Notes under the pieces: model-generated
The model's database searches: none
What the model saw: the letters and a program-made list of their open reading frames with translations, nothing else
Told to the model about the DNA's origin: nothing
In this document: positions 8,508-16,072 of the stretch, piece by piece
Layout of the letters: each line of letters starts with the position of its first letter
How positions within the stretch are numbered: position 1 is the first letter of the stretch
From: Ruegeria marina
Lineage (GTDB): Bacteria > Pseudomonadota > Alphaproteobacteria > Rhodobacterales > Rhodobacteraceae
Length of the DNA: 64,000 bases
Direction: 5' to 3'
Assembly: GCF_900101475.1 (NCBI RefSeq)
Contig: NZ_FMZV01000005.1
Span: forward strand, 62,001 to 126,000
Position numbers and translations under genes: made by a program

Positions 8508-9113
8508 TCAGCGGCGCCGGTCGCGGCGCGCGCTCATCGGCTGGAAGGCCACGCCCACATGCGCCTCGCAATAGGGTTTGCCCTGCTGCACCGGCAGGCC
8601 GCAGAACCAAAAGTCGTCAGTCGCGGGGTCCCCCACCGGCCATTTGCAGGTGCGTTCGGTGAGCTCCATGAGCGTCAGTTTCTTGGCCTTTTTCTCGACC
8701 TCGTTGACCTTGGCCAGCGCCTCGGGGCTGATCTCGTTGGCCGAAGGCTGCGGTGGCAGCGGCTGGCCTGCCGGAATGATCTGCTTGCGCGGCGGAATGG
8801 GCTTGGCCTCGGCCGGCTGTGGATCGGCGGCCGCCGCCGCGGGGGCGGGGCGCGCAGGTTCCGTGCGCGGCACGGGTTTTGCCCGGACCTCGGGCTTGGG
8901 TGCGCTGGCCGCGGGCTTGTCCTTGACTTCGGGCTTGGCCGGTGCGGGCGCCGCCGCGGGGCCCGATGTACGGTTTGACAGACCCAGGCGGTGAACCTTG
9001 CCGATCACTGCGTTGCGGGTCACCCCGCCCAGTTCCTTGGCGATCTGGCTGGCCGACTGGCCATCGCTCCACATTTTCTTGAGCAGTTCAACGCGCTCGT
9101 CAGTCCAGGACAT
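8508..9113 (-). CDS. gcrA: GcrA cell cycle regulator
   Basis: Alphaproteobacterial transcriptional regulator that binds sigma70-RNA polymerase and activates promoters carrying methylated GANTC sites. The N terminus (MSWTDERVELLKKMWSDG, then SASQIAKELG and TRNAVIGKVHRLGL) is the helix-turn-helix; a long Ala/Pro/Lys linker (about residues 50-140) follows, and the C-terminal domain holds CKWPVGDP, FWFCGLP and PYCEAH. Length 201 residues is within family range. It is divergent from the ABC permease across a 133-bp gap containing one GANTC site. Confidence 0.96.
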   Translation of the reverse strand: MSWTDERVELLKKMWSDGQSASQIAKELGGVTRNAVIGKVHRLGLSNRTSGPAAAPAPAKPEVKDKPAASAPKPEVRAKPVPRTEPARPAPAAAAADPQPAEAKPIPPRKQIIPAGQPLPPQPSANEISPEALAKVNEVEKKAKKLTLMELTERTCKWPVGDPATDDFWFCGLPVQQGKPYCEAHVGVAFQPMSARRDRRR

Positions 9114-9246
9114 GTCAGCCTCTCAAAAGCGGGAAAAGCGGCCCCATGCGCTGTGGCCGCCTCCGGAATTCGTCTCAGCGCCCTATTCTAGCCACTGCGG
9201 CCCGAGTTACAAGGCACTTCGAATCGGATCGCGACAGGAGAATGGC

Positions 9247-10053
9247 ATGAACGGCAAGACGGTCGAACCCGGGGTCCGCCGCTTTGGGCGCATCAACTGG
9301 CTGGGGCTCTATACCCTTGCGGCGCGCGAGGTGATGCGGTTTCTCGTGGTCTGGACCCAGACCCTGCTGGCGCCGCTGGTGACGGCCGGGCTGTTCCTGA
9401 TGATCTTCACGCTCGCGGTCGGTTCGGGCCGGGGCGAGGTCATGGGCGTCCCCTTCCTGCATTTCCTGGCGCCGGGCATCCTGATGATGACGGTGATCCA
9501 GAACGCCTTTGCAAATACCTCGTCCTCGGTGGTGATCTCGAAGGTGCAGGGCAATATCGTTGACACTCTGATGCCGCCCCTTTCGCCGCTGGAACTGCTG
9601 CTGGGTTATCTGGCGGGCGCGGTGGCGCGGGGCGTGATCGTGGCCCTGGCCATAGCGGTCGCGCTGGCGCTGCTGCTGGGGCTGGTCGCGCAGCATCCGG
9701 TGCTGGCCCTGTTCTATGCCGCGCTGGGCGCGGCCTTCATGGGGGCGCTGGGGCTTGTGGCAGGGATCTACGCCAACAAGTTCGACCAGATGGCGGCGAT
9801 CACCAATTTCATCGTCACGCCGCTCGCGTTCCTGTCCGGCACCTTCTATTCGGTCGAGGTGCTGCCGCCTGCGCTTTGGTTCCTGAGCCACGCCAACCCG
9901 GTGTTCTACCTGATCGACGGGCTGCGCTTTGCGGTGATCGGCGCCTCCGACAGCCCGCCCGCGCTGGGGGCCGCGGTCTGCGTCGCCGCCACCTTCGCGG
10001 TCTGCCTGCTGGCCTGGTCGATGCTGAGGAAAGGTTACCGCCTGAAGGCGTGA
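9247..10053 (+). CDS. ABC-2 type transporter permease
   Basis: A 268-residue membrane protein of the ABC-2/NodJ-YadH group with about six transmembrane helices starting after residue 35; the conserved block near residue 190 (FIVTPLAFLSGTFYSVEVLP) is typical of drug, heme or polysaccharide exporters. ATG 9247 is preceded by CAGGAGAATGGC, a good ribosome-binding site. No ATP-binding subunit is adjacent: gcrA is divergent and an unrelated MFS gene converges 10 bp downstream. The substrate is unknown. Confidence 0.88.
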   Translation: MNGKTVEPGVRRFGRINWLGLYTLAAREVMRFLVVWTQTLLAPLVTAGLFLMIFTLAVGSGRGEVMGVPFLHFLAPGILMMTVIQNAFANTSSSVVISKVQGNIVDTLMPPLSPLELLLGYLAGAVARGVIVALAIAVALALLLGLVAQHPVLALFYAALGAAFMGALGLVAGIYANKFDQMAAITNFIVTPLAFLSGTFYSVEVLPPALWFLSHANPVFYLIDGLRFAVIGASDSPPALGAAVCVAATFAVCLLAWSMLRKGYRLKA

Positions 10054-12376: not shown

Positions 12377-12694
12377 GCGCCAGCGGTGACCGAGTACCGC
12401 GCGCTTGACAAGAGGAAACGATGGGTCCGGCTGGTGTCGTCAGCGAGGCGCAAGGGCGGCGCGGCGCGATTTGGTGCGCGCCGTGCCGCGAATGGCGCCC
12501 ATGATCACCCGGACGCGACTGCGGGGAATTCCGTTACCAGCGTGTCGAGGCGCTGGTGGCCAGGGGCATTCCCGGCATCTTTGCCCGCCGGACGTGGCGA
12601 CTCGACCGCTGCGCGTGGCCGGATTGCCATTTTGTTGCATGCGACCCTCCAAAAGGGGTTTTCTTTGCGCGAATCCTCCGTTATGGAGCGCGCC
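12377..12694. other. Intergenic region upstream of argD leader; possible gene remnant
   Basis: About 318 bp without a confident gene. Frame 1 from about 12505 to 12640 shows high GC3 and protein-like composition, but no start fits well, a TGA interrupts it at 12502-12504, and the frame then crosses the leader peptide, so it may be the relic of a decayed gene. The promoter for argD should also lie here, though no clear -35/-10 pair was seen. Confidence 0.35.
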
Positions 12695-12748
12695 ATGATC
12701 AAACTCGTCCATATCCTGTCCCTTCGACGCCGACGTGCTGCCGCCTGA
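12695..12748 (+). CDS. Putative arginine leader peptide (17 aa)
   Basis: A short ORF, MIKLVHILSLRRRRAAA, 115 bp before argD. GGAG at 12685-12688 sits 6 nt from the ATG, a very good ribosome-binding site. Four consecutive Arg codons (CGA CGC CGA CGT, 12725-12736) lie just before the stop, the layout of an attenuator peptide where ribosome stalling senses charged tRNA-Arg. A GCCGC/GCGGC stem overlaps its stop codon and more stems follow before argD. The match between the codon run and the downstream arginine pathway is the main argument. An in-frame ATG at 12683 lacks a ribosome-binding site. No homologue was checked. Confidence 0.62.
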   Translation: MIKLVHILSLRRRRAAA

Positions 12749-12863
12749 GCGGCCTCTTGATCCATGCGCGCCCGTGTTTTCCGCGCATATCCCGTTACAG
12801 ACATTGACCTGACCGCCCCGCTATGCCCTGCATCGGGGATAACCATCAGACAAGGATGATCCC
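12739..12863 (+). promoter_or_regulatory. Candidate attenuator/translational control region of argD
   Basis: Three stems follow the leader peptide: GCCGC/GCGGC around its stop codon (about 12740-12753); ATGCGCG (12764-12770) with CGCGCAT (12782-12788); and CCCCG plus ATGC (12816-12826) with GCAT plus CGGGG (12830-12838). A fourth option pairs GGGAT at 12836-12840 with ATCCC at 12859-12863, which would enclose the argD ribosome-binding site (AAGGA near 12853). No U-run follows any stem, so translational or Rho-dependent control seems likelier than intrinsic termination. Confidence 0.45.
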
Positions 12864-14051
12864 ATGATTCCGTCCGTCCTGCCGACCTATAACCGCGCGC
12901 CGCTTAACTTCGTGAAGGGCGAAGGCGCCTGGCTGACCGAGGCGGACGGCCGACGTTTCCTCGACCTCGGCTCGGGCATTGCGGTGAATGCGCTGGGCCA
13001 TGCCCATCCGGCATTGGTCAAGGCGCTGACCGACCAGGCCCAGAACCTGTGGCATGTTTCCAACCTCTACCAGATCCCGCAACAGCAGGCGCTGGCCGAC
13101 AAGCTGGTGGAGCATACTTTCGCCGACACGGTATTCTTCACCAATTCGGGCACCGAGGCCTGCGAACTGGCGGTCAAGATGGCGCGCAAGTATTTCTACG
13201 ACAAGGGCCAGCCCGAGCGTGTCGAGATCCTCACCTTCGACGGCTCGTTTCATGGCCGGTCCTCGGCCGGCATCGCCGCCGCTGGCTCGGAAAAGATGGT
13301 CAAGGGGTTCGGCCCGCTGCTGCCCGGTTTCGTGCATCTCACCTTCGGCGATCTCGACGGCGTGACCAACGCGATCACCGACAAGACCGCCGCGATCCTG
13401 ATCGAGCCGGTGCAGGGCGAGGGCGGCATTCGCCCCGTCCCCGATGCCGAGCTGAAGGCGCTGCGGCAGATCTGCGACGATCACGGCCTGCTGCTGATCC
13501 TCGACGAGGTGCAATGCGGGATGGGGCGCACCGGCAAGCTGTTCGCGCATGAATGGGCGGGCATCACACCCGACATCATGATGGTCGCCAAGGGCATCGG
13601 CGGCGGCTTTCCCCTGGGTGCCGTGCTGGCCACCGAAGAGGCCGCTTCGGGCATGACCGCGGGCACGCATGGCTCCACCTATGGCGGCAACCCGCTGGGC
13701 TGCGCGGTGGGCTGCGCGGTGATTGACCACATCACCGCCCCGGCCTTTCTCGAAGGCGTCAACCGCAAGGCAGGGTTGCTGCGGCAAAAGCTGGAAGGCC
13801 TGGTCGCCGACCACCCGGAGGTGTTCGAAGAGGTTCGCGGCGCTGGCCTGATGCTGGGGCTGAAATGCAAGGCGTCCAACCTTGACGTCGTCAAGGCCGG
13901 CTATGACAATCTGGTCATAACGGTGCCTGCTGCCGATAACGTCATTCGCCTTCTGCCGCCCCTGACGCTGACAGAGGACGACATTGCACAGGCCATGATC
14001 CGCCTCGACAAGGCCGCCGCACAGGTTGAAGAACAGCTCGCAACCTCCTGA
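12864..14051 (+). CDS. argD: Acetylornithine/succinyldiaminopimelate aminotransferase
   Basis: PLP-dependent class III aminotransferase making N-acetylornithine from N-acetylglutamate semialdehyde. The 395-residue protein has NSGTEACELAVKMARKY near residue 95, the cofactor-binding LILDEVQCGMGRTGK near 212-226 and the PLP lysine in MMVAKGIGGGFPLGA near 240. Start ATG is preceded by AAGGATGATCCC. It heads an arginine gene run with argF 90 bp downstream, with the leader peptide upstream probably setting its expression. A hairpin repeat sits between argD and argF. Confidence 0.96.
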   Translation: MIPSVLPTYNRAPLNFVKGEGAWLTEADGRRFLDLGSGIAVNALGHAHPALVKALTDQAQNLWHVSNLYQIPQQQALADKLVEHTFADTVFFTNSGTEACELAVKMARKYFYDKGQPERVEILTFDGSFHGRSSAGIAAAGSEKMVKGFGPLLPGFVHLTFGDLDGVTNAITDKTAAILIEPVQGEGGIRPVPDAELKALRQICDDHGLLLILDEVQCGMGRTGKLFAHEWAGITPDIMMVAKGIGGGFPLGAVLATEEAASGMTAGTHGSTYGGNPLGCAVGCAVIDHITAPAFLEGVNRKAGLLRQKLEGLVADHPEVFEEVRGAGLMLGLKCKASNLDVVKAGYDNLVITVPAADNVIRLLPPLTLTEDDIAQAMIRLDKAAAQVEEQLATS

Positions 14052-14141: not shown

Positions 14142-15068
14142 ATGAATCACTTTCTCGACATCCACAAGACCGACGCTGCCGACCTGCGCGCCATGATCGA
14201 CCAGGCGGGTGCCATGAAAAAGGCCCGCCTCGGCCGGCCCAGGGCCGCGCCCGATGACACGCAGCCGCTCAAGGACCGGATGGTGGCGCTGATCTTCGAG
14301 AAACCCTCGACCCGGACCCGCGTGTCCTTCGACGTTGGCGTGCGCCAGATGGGCGGGCAGACCATGGTGCTTTCGGGCAATGACATGCAGCTCGGTCACG
14401 GCGAGACCATCGCGGATACCGCCCGCGTGCTCAGCCGCTACGTCGACATGATCATGATCCGCACCTTCGACGAGACGGTGCTGACCGAGATGGCCGAATA
14501 TGCCGATGTTCCCGTCATCAACGGGCTGACCGACCGCACCCATCCCTGTCAGATCATGGCCGACGTGCTGACATTCGAGGAGCACCGCGGCCCGATCGCC
14601 GGCAAGAAGGTGGTCTGGACCGGCGACGGCAACAATGTCTGTTCCTCCTTCCTGCATGCCGCCGGTCAGTTCGGCTTCGATCTCACCTTCACCGGCCCGG
14701 CCCAGTTCGACCCCAAGGAAGAGTTCGTGGGCTTCGCCCGCCGCAAGGGCTCGACGATCGTGATCGAGCGCGATCCCTACAAGGCGGTCGAGGGCGCCGA
14801 TCTGGTGGTGGCCGATACCTGGGTGTCGATGCATGACGCGCAATCGGCCAAGGAACGCCGGCACAACCTGCTCAGGCCCTACCAGGTCAATGCCGAACTG
14901 ATGCGCCACGCCAAGCCGGATGCACTCTTCATGCATTGCCTGCCCGCCCACCGCGAGGAGGAAGCGACCTCCGAGGTGATGGATGGCCCGAACTCTGTCG
15001 TCTTCGACGAGGCGGAAAACCGGCTGCACGCGCAAAAGGCGATCATGCGCTGGTGCCTGGGGGTCTGA
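14142..15068 (+). CDS. argF: Ornithine carbamoyltransferase
   Basis: Makes citrulline from ornithine and carbamoyl phosphate; a cytoplasmic trimer. The 308-residue sequence has the carbamoyl-phosphate loop [12 protein letters not shown] near residues 52-63, the HPCQ motif in [11 protein letters not shown] near 131, and the ornithine-side MHCLPAHR near 266. It follows argD by 90 bp with a hairpin element between, and precedes argC by 86 bp, so the three are probably co-transcribed at least in part. Confidence 0.97.
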
Positions 15069-15154
15069 TCTCGCGCCTGCGCAACCTGAACCAAACCGAT
15101 GGCCGGACTCGGCCAGATCATCGCATACCCACTCCTCAACACGGGGGACTGAAC

Positions 15155-16072
15155 ATGACACACAAGGTCTTCATCGACGGCGAGGTCGGCACCACCGGCC
15201 TCCAGATCCGCGCCCGGCTCGAAGGGCGGGACGATATCCGTCTCGTCACCCTGGGCGAGGCCGAGCGCAAGGATACCGGCGCGCGGCTGGCCGCCTTTGC
15301 CGAGGCCGATGTCGGCATCCTTTGCCTGCCCGACGCGGCGGCGGTCGAGATCGTGGCGCAACTGGCTGGCACCGGGACCCGCCTGATCGACGCCAGCACC
15401 GCGCACCGGGTCGACCCGGACTGGGTGTTCGGCTTCCCCGAGATGGACAGCGGCCTGCGCGACCGGATCGCCAGCGGTCAGTTCGTCTCGAACCCCGGCT
15501 GCTATTCCACCGGCGCCATTGCGCTCTTGCACCCGCTGGTCAAGCGCGGGCTGATCGCCGCCGAAACGCCGCTCGCCATCAATGCCATCAGCGGCTATTC
15601 CGGCGGCGGCAAGGCGATGATCGCCGAGTTCCAGAGCGGCCAGACCGACGGCCCCTTCGTTTATGCCACCGACCAGCGGCACAAGCACCTGCCCGAGATC
15701 ATCGCGCATGTGGGCCTGTCGCGGCGGCCCGTCTTCGTGCCCTCGGTCGGCCCCTACGAACAGGGCATGATCGTGCAGGTGCCGCTGCCCTTCCTGGAAC
15801 CGGGCGAGAGCGCCGGCCTGCACGCGGCCCTGGCCGAGCATTACGCCGGCAGCGCCTTCGTGTCGGTCGTCAAGCCGGATCACTACGGCGCCCGGATCGA
15901 CCCGCGCCGCCTGAACGATACCAACCGGCTGGAACTGTCGGTGCATGGCAATCCCGACACCGGCGGCGCGGTGCTGATCGCCCTGCTCGACAACCTGGGC
16001 AAGGGCGCCTCGGGGGCGGCGGTGCAGAACCTCAACATCATGCTCGGGCTCGATGAAACGCTGGGCCTCTGA
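15155..16072 (+). CDS. argC: N-acetyl-gamma-glutamyl-phosphate reductase (type 2)
   Basis: Reduces N-acetylglutamyl phosphate to the semialdehyde with NADPH. At 305 residues it belongs to the shorter ArgC class; the start MTHKVFIDGEVGTTGLQIR carries the nucleotide-binding loop and the catalytic cysteine lies in NPGCYSTGA near residue 115. The start at 15155 follows GGGGGACTGAAC. A longer frame upstream overlaps argF and is a shadow. Position downstream of argF completes three of the arginine steps in one stretch. Confidence 0.95.
   Translation: MTHKVFIDGEVGTTGLQIRARLEGRDDIRLVTLGEAERKDTGARLAAFAEADVGILCLPDAAAVEIVAQLAGTGTRLIDASTAHRVDPDWVFGFPEMDSGLRDRIASGQFVSNPGCYSTGAIALLHPLVKRGLIAAETPLAINAISGYSGGGKAMIAEFQSGQTDGPFVYATDQRHKHLPEIIAHVGLSRRPVFVPSVGPYEQGMIVQVPLPFLEPGESAGLHAALAEHYAGSAFVSVVKPDHYGARIDPRRLNDTNRLELSVHGNPDTGGAVLIALLDNLGKGASGAAVQNLNIMLGLDETLGL

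Follow-up and report, generated by a model that had tools for sequence, protein, structure and literature searches.

The window, meaning the whole 64,000-nucleotide stretch of DNA analysed here, belongs to a 4.99 Mb draft genome whose closest named argD matches are those of Ruegeria. NCBIfam profile matches place argD, argF and argC in one operon order directly 3' of a short open reading frame (ORF) that carries a run of arginine codons, which bears out the earlier sequence-only reading that a leader ORF with Arg codons precedes an operon for arginine biosynthesis. The coordinates of that reading for the 17-codon ORF, its four adjacent Arg codons and the argD start also held. The genes and the leader are arranged as follows.

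12695 to 12748, forward strand: leader ORF MIKLVHILSLRRRRAAA, probably leaderless, 17 codons, with its ATG at 12695 and its stop codon TGA at 12746-12748.
12725 to 12736, forward strand: four consecutive Arg codons, CGA CGC CGA CGT, a run conserved and CGA-enriched in the family.
12852 to 12856, forward strand: Shine-Dalgarno (SD) sequence of argD, AAGGA, SD-like in 141 of 142 relatives.
12864 to 14051, forward strand: argD, acetylornithine transaminase (NF002325, 632.7 bits, cut-off 372).
14142 to 15068, forward strand: argF, ornithine carbamoyltransferase (TIGR00658, 373.1 bits, cut-off 280.85).
15155 to 16072, forward strand: argC, N-acetyl-gamma-glutamyl-phosphate reductase (TIGR01851, 374.2 bits, cut-off 229.85; the query started at 15143).

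The leader was followed through argD upstream regions of the same GTDB family, taken from 80 named contigs and 110 further genomes (190 loci, 179 of them distinct); the 110 include the window's own genome, belong nearly all to different genera and come from the stronger argD matches among those listed. Under a strict rule, which demanded an ATG ORF of 8-24 codons with RRR within the last nine residues, a leader was detected in 142 of 179 distinct regions on the forward strand, whereas the reverse strand gave 5 and mononucleotide-shuffled sequences 0 of the same 179; RRRR under the same rule gave 113, 2 and 0. A loose rule (at least two R in six residues, with the choice of leader weighted by -10 likeness) raised the count to 171 of 179 distinct regions, corresponding to each of the 80 named loci and to 102 among the other 110, with eight loci set aside and one (L185) assigned by hand. 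Thinning of similar sequences left 142 representatives, a figure that equals the strict count by coincidence. A chance ORF lying over GC-rich promoter DNA, with no regulatory leader at all, would agree with the ordinary fold of the window's own sequence taken by itself (z -0.34, 78 of 200 shuffles as good), but the excess over both controls, together with the compensatory changes and the clustering on a tree reported below, makes this explanation barely credible.

The sequence-only reading had proposed an alignment of argD loci across the family, and this comparison found the Arg codons kept while most other leader residues vary. With the first two R fixed by anchoring, the third position of the run is R in 110 of 142 leaders and the fourth in 89 of 117. 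Besides the run, the recurring parts are codons 1-3, which fall inside the helix S1 described below, a Leu or Ile before the run (82/142) and an Ala six residues past its start (43 of 52 leaders). The run is also distinctive in codon choice, since CGA accounts for 289 of 628 leader Arg codons (46%) and for 62 of 846 (7%) in the argD genes of 55 named representatives. The leader therefore shows three broad marks of a leader-peptide attenuator, namely a run of codons for the product, the cognate operon downstream and a run kept over other residues. A second leader type, ending in CCGACGAGCC and a stop (for example MTHATRIRRA) with two or three Arg codons, was seen in L058, L069, L100, L112, L138, L150, L152 and L155, and in L112, L138 and L150 the stop lies under a hairpin closed by GAGC/GCTC. 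Elsewhere among the arginine genes, no ORF with three R in six residues was found upstream of argG (15 loci) or argJ (14 loci), 12 of each from the family, nor an ORF with RRR upstream of argB in this genome. A 25-codon ORF before argH of this genome has RRR in its middle and was taken for chance. CCGACGCCGACGC has two matches in this genome, within frames of 536 and 396 codons.

The start of the leader was examined with respect to its promoter and its ribosome-binding site.

12659 to 12687, forward strand: candidate promoter P1, with -35 TTTTCT at 12659-12664, a 17-nt spacer and -10 TATGGA at 12682-12687; predicted transcription start 12695.

Among the 88 strict leaders with a single possible ATG, a TA begins 12, 13 and 14 nt 5' of the ATG in 38, 27 and 21 cases, compared with 10 at 11 nt, 6 at 10 nt and at most 5 at any other distance between 8 and 30 nt; a first spacing search had been limited to 11-17 nt, and this count was repeated without that restriction. 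A pyrimidine occupies -1 in 85 of the 88. Moreover, a sequence logo of 171 loci has T at positions -36 to -34 and lacks an SD. The leader had been credited with an excellent ribosome-binding site, and the window does have a GGAG there; across the family, however, an SD-like tetramer stands before 17 of 142 leaders, at the level expected by shuffling (14.8), against 141 of 142 argD genes (search windows -15 to -5 for the leader and -18 to -5 for argD). The GGAG overlaps the -10-like TATGGA and is most likely part of the -10 box. Usual -10-to-start distances would place the transcription start at the leader ATG, and the leader ORF would thus probably begin at the 5' end of its transcript, that is, be leaderless.

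Between the leader start and argD, the following elements were delimited.

12697 to 12702, forward strand: 5' strand of helix S1, GATCAA, beginning with the G of the ATG and reaching codon 3 (covariation).
12757 to 12762, forward strand: 3' strand of helix S1, TTGATC, located 8 nt past the leader stop (covariation).
12740 to 12753, forward strand: hairpin S0 over the leader stop, GCCGC 12740-12744 with GCGGC 12749-12753 (swap test).
12764 to 12788, forward strand: hairpin H2, ATGCGCG 12764-12770 with CGCGCAT 12782-12788 (folding z).
12789 to 12803, forward strand: linker, a candidate Rho entry site or promoter upstream element (base composition).
12804 to 12832, forward strand: candidate second promoter P2, with -35 TTGAC at 12804-12808 and a poor -10 position at 12827-12832 (CCTGCA).
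12816 to 12838, forward strand: hairpin H3, CCCCG 12816-12820 with CGGGG 12834-12838, inner ATGC/GCAT (swap test).

Pairing was evaluated by a swap test, in which the pairing of each species' own two arms is compared with that of arms exchanged between species; the z values are upper estimates because the thinned sequences are treated as independent. For S1, leader bases 1-14 against post-stop positions 0-20 gave z -5.8 raw and -6.3 after composition correction, compared with 0.2 for an untranscribed control arm. The test is not sharp, however: against windows as far as 60 nt downstream of the stop, leader bases 1-14 reach -2.9 to -3.8, so that part of the -6.3 is background (relatedness or a shifted partner). 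Unbroken S1 helices of at least 7 occur in 37 of 142 own pairings versus about 13 swapped ones, and outside the common GATCAA type (101 loci) helices of at least 6 occur in 34% of own versus 17% of swapped pairings, the highest of 50 swaps reaching 23%. Compensatory pairs are exemplified by GTTCAAACG/CGTTTGAAC, GGTCAAAG/CTTTGACC, GCGCAAAG/CTTTGCGC and GAACAACA/TGTTGTTC, and codons 1-3 therefore seem to be held for pairing as well as for coding. Folding of the leader together with the next 25 nt is at the level of shuffled sequences (mean z -0.13). In the folding model, the expected number of S1 pairs is 2.8 without a ribosome, 2.4 when a ribosome occupies the Arg run and 1.3 when it sits at the stop, by which S1 could form after ribosome release, yet also around a stalled ribosome.

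The sequence-only reading had described three stems before argD. These can be drawn, as S0 over the stop, H2 and H3, but the helix with the best support, S1, is one that it did not name. S0 scored z -3.9 and -3.3 in the swap test, which is not above the background from farther windows. The H2 region has a mean folding z of -1.08 (n 142) versus -0.63 for an untranscribed control, and its arms were not significant by the swap test (z -1.0 and -1.5). H3 reached z -6.4 in the swap test (n 137) with a mean folding z of -1.2; since H3 lies on P2, its covariation may be promoter matter. RNAalifold on 67 regions returned S1, four H2 pairs and small stems, with H3 absent.

Of 171 leader loci, 166 have the TTGAC of P2, which in most cases lies 54-69 nt upstream of argD; it also stands at -56 to -65 in all 8 of 8 leader-lacking loci, and GGCAC recurs at positions 21-25 counted from its first T. 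In 66 loci of other families, 33 occurrences of TTGAC were counted within 110 nt of argD, at scattered distances, and four other-family loci (L269, L274, L282, L286) read, by eye, TTGAC, 17 nt, GATACT. Across 493 TTGAC sites in 304 kb of this genome (both strands, coding included), GCACTC never occurred at spacings 10-23, and GCAC followed five times at spacing 16 (2.4-fold) and once at 17. TTGAC with a GCAC -10 was accordingly rejected as a general promoter motif in these 304 kb of the genome, a result that weighs against P2, and P2 rests for that reason on its conservation at argD. We interpret P2 as an older promoter of argD whose -10 box has worn. The segment 12804-12838 as a whole combines TTGAC and GGCAC, conserved upstream of argD whether or not the leader is there, with an overlying covarying hairpin, and may be an old worn promoter or a structured element. 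For Rho-dependent leader-peptide systems such as tnaC and speF orf34, a C-rich and G-poor stretch would be expected behind the leader. The 20 nt before TTGAC are 40% C and 10% G in the family, a composition that could also serve P2, and 12749-12803 of the window holds 20 C and 13 G. P2 also bears on the idea that argD is driven by P2 and that the leader RNA or peptide is a separate trans-acting product, a mode of action that passages of PMC7298713 describe for rnTrpL and peTrpL of S. meliloti. The persistence of TTGAC in loci with and without the leader speaks for this; the variation of most peptide residues other than Arg, the poor -10 of P2 here and the lack of TTGAC + GCACTC at spacings 10-23 in the 304 kb speak against it, and we regard it as improbable.

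The sequence-only reading had noted that no U-run follows the stems, and indeed the window has none and the family has no conserved U-run terminator. A GC hairpin whose next eight bases contain four T occurs in 47 of 142 relatives versus 24 shuffled and 14 reverse. Classical trp-type attenuation, with H2 or H3 as the intrinsic terminator, could appeal to this excess over shuffled sequences, to the hairpins behind the leader, to the composition of the ten positions that follow H3 (T 38%, G 13%) and to the U-run of the Rhodobacterales cysS leader described in parts of PMC8632094; it is nevertheless unlikely, as the window lacks a U-run and 95 of 142 relatives lack such a hairpin with its four T. 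Moreover, the post-stop strand has no alternative partner by covariation (argD RBS z +1.6; TTGAC region 0.0), which leaves a classical switch without covariation support.

Translational control, in which the ribosome's position on the leader would decide the exposure of the argD RBS, was weighed in the same way. The sequence-only reading had favoured translational or Rho-dependent control over intrinsic termination, and the missing conserved U-run terminator agrees with both, whereas control at the RBS gains no support from covariation or footprint folding. Leader GATCA pairs with TGATC at the argD RBS in the window's predicted fold, yet this pairing of the leader start with the RBS was rejected as it does not covary (z -0.3), nor does the post-stop region with the RBS (z +1.6). 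With the ribosome's footprint masked, the argD SD keeps the same predicted openness, 0.44, whether the leader is free of ribosomes or holds one on its Arg run or at its stop (n 142). We regard translational control as unlikely, slightly more so than an intrinsic terminator. In L062, a single case that carries no statistical weight, the argD RBS region is AAGGATTCAAACC in place of the usual AAGGATGATCC, echoing a changed leader start (GTTCAAA) and post-stop strand (TTTGAAC). With RBS masking disfavoured by constant openness and absent covariation, termination remains, and Rho is the likelier terminating agent because the U-run is absent.

Overall, we assign a probability of roughly three in four to the reading that a leader-peptide attenuator, sensed by the ribosome and specific for arginine, precedes argD-argF-argC and probably works with no intrinsic terminator. 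The features borne out by the family comparison are the leader ORF with its Arg run, the placement of the -10, helices S1 and H3, and the absence of both an SD and a conserved U-run, and on them the following course of events is proposed. The P1 transcript would start on the A of the leader ATG or beside it and would be read as a leaderless mRNA by a ribosome trailing the polymerase. When charged tRNA-Arg is short, this ribosome would halt on the Arg run, where two of the four codons are CGA, uncommon in argD, and the operon would be transcribed. When arginine is ample, it would reach the leader stop and leave; codons 1-3 would then pair behind the stop (S1), locking the start codon, and about one ribosome per transcript would decide the outcome. 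After S1 closure, transcription would end 5' of argD without a U-run, for which we prefer Rho as the probable agent. P2 may provide basal expression that bypasses the leader.

Leader-peptide attenuation is textbook knowledge for the trp, his, leu, ilv, thr and phe operons, and to our knowledge no such attenuator has been known for bacterial arginine synthesis. No arginine leader before argD was found among the open-licence papers that the literature searches listed, which is weak evidence of novelty. In Rfam 15, no family reached its gathering score in the window or in 12 relatives; of three weak matches in the region, the best (Clostridiales-2, minus strand, 21.8 vs 58.6 bits) was taken as chance. 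T-boxes are tRNA-binding RNAs without a leader ORF. Passages of PMC1262725 report arginine T-boxes as RNA-level control of arginine genes, and describe Mycobacterium cys-operon leaders that resemble the argD leader in that the codon run lies close to the stop, a conserved terminator hairpin is missing and a role of Rho is proposed, while differing in the amino acid (cysteine) and the phylum (Actinobacteria). The trpL of S. meliloti (rnTrpL/peTrpL) is reported as a leaderless leader ORF in the parts consulted of PMC7298713 and PMC10117765; it is likewise alphaproteobacterial with codons for the product amino acid in a row, the 5' start being predicted in our case, and it differs in its Trp codons and in a described transcription terminator, those parts containing no mention of a start-codon helix. 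In the Salmonella speF leader, excerpts of PMC6386406 describe orf34 with consecutive Arg codons sensed by ribosome pausing and a Rho-dependent ending for which no intrinsic terminator was found, much as proposed for the argD leader. According to the same excerpts, orf34 differs in having 34 codons and an SD, in starting at nt 32 with speF at nt 516, in serving a polyamine gene, in responding to ornithine too and in having two consecutive Arg codons; identity with it was rejected, the gene after the present leader being argD and not speF. From the same order, Rhodobacterales, portions of PMC8632094 present uORFC-8-2, a short uORF before cysS with tandem cognate codons that is read as ribosome-mediated attenuation. 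Identity was rejected here as well, since in those portions uORFC-8-2 has Cys codons, a tRNA synthetase gene and a U-run terminator, compared with Arg codons, argD and no such terminator in our case. The terms argD and acetylornithine occur 0 times in the main text of that paper.

The distribution of the leader was extended to 30 further family genomes, hand-picked from the weaker argD matches among those listed and not comprising all of the weakest. One gene was misplaced (L348), and two matches were weak only because they were cut (L334 and L351, both with leader), which gives a leader in 10 of 29 readable loci and in 8 of 27 truly divergent ones, with 19 lacking it. In other alphaproteobacterial families the count was 11 of 67 argD loci versus 9 of 67 on the reverse strand, that is, background only. 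On a 155-row ArgD tree, leader presence required 2 changes versus 38.5 in shuffles, a pattern that fits one acquisition ahead of the core family plus one loss, on a tree built by a quick method with long branches and a midpoint root and with L105 left out. The single loss (L325) sits on a long, oddly composed branch of unsure place. Eight of 179 close-family regions lack the leader, and more losses are possible because leader-lacking L140, L148, L172, L177, L181, L187 and L190 lie outside the tree. In leader-lacking L172, L177, L187, L330, L340 and L343, a frame with an ending like GYRLK was seen by eye shortly 5' of argD. The same ending belongs to the ABC permease at 9055-10053 of the window, which lies about 2.8 kb upstream of argD with two reverse-strand frames between. 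Further points against an attenuator are that P2 might let argD escape it and that the leader is missing from 8 of 179 close and 19 of 27 divergent regions. The fuller scheme, a one-shot leaderless arginine attenuator with an AUG-first transcript, a self-closing S1, a Rho ending and a single gain over an older promoter in the ancestor of the core Rhodobacteraceae, is put forward as tentative, at somewhat less than even odds.

For the biology of the family, the leader would probably let the cell raise its arginine-making genes when charged tRNA-Arg is short, and such arginine control is predicted in Ruegeria, Phaeobacter, Sulfitobacter and their kin. The attenuator seems to have been gained once and kept, under the loose rule, in 102 of 110 loci of nearly all different genera and in 80 of 80 named ones. 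It may offer a natural system for the coupling of a leaderless ORF to the polymerase and for attenuation without an intrinsic terminator.
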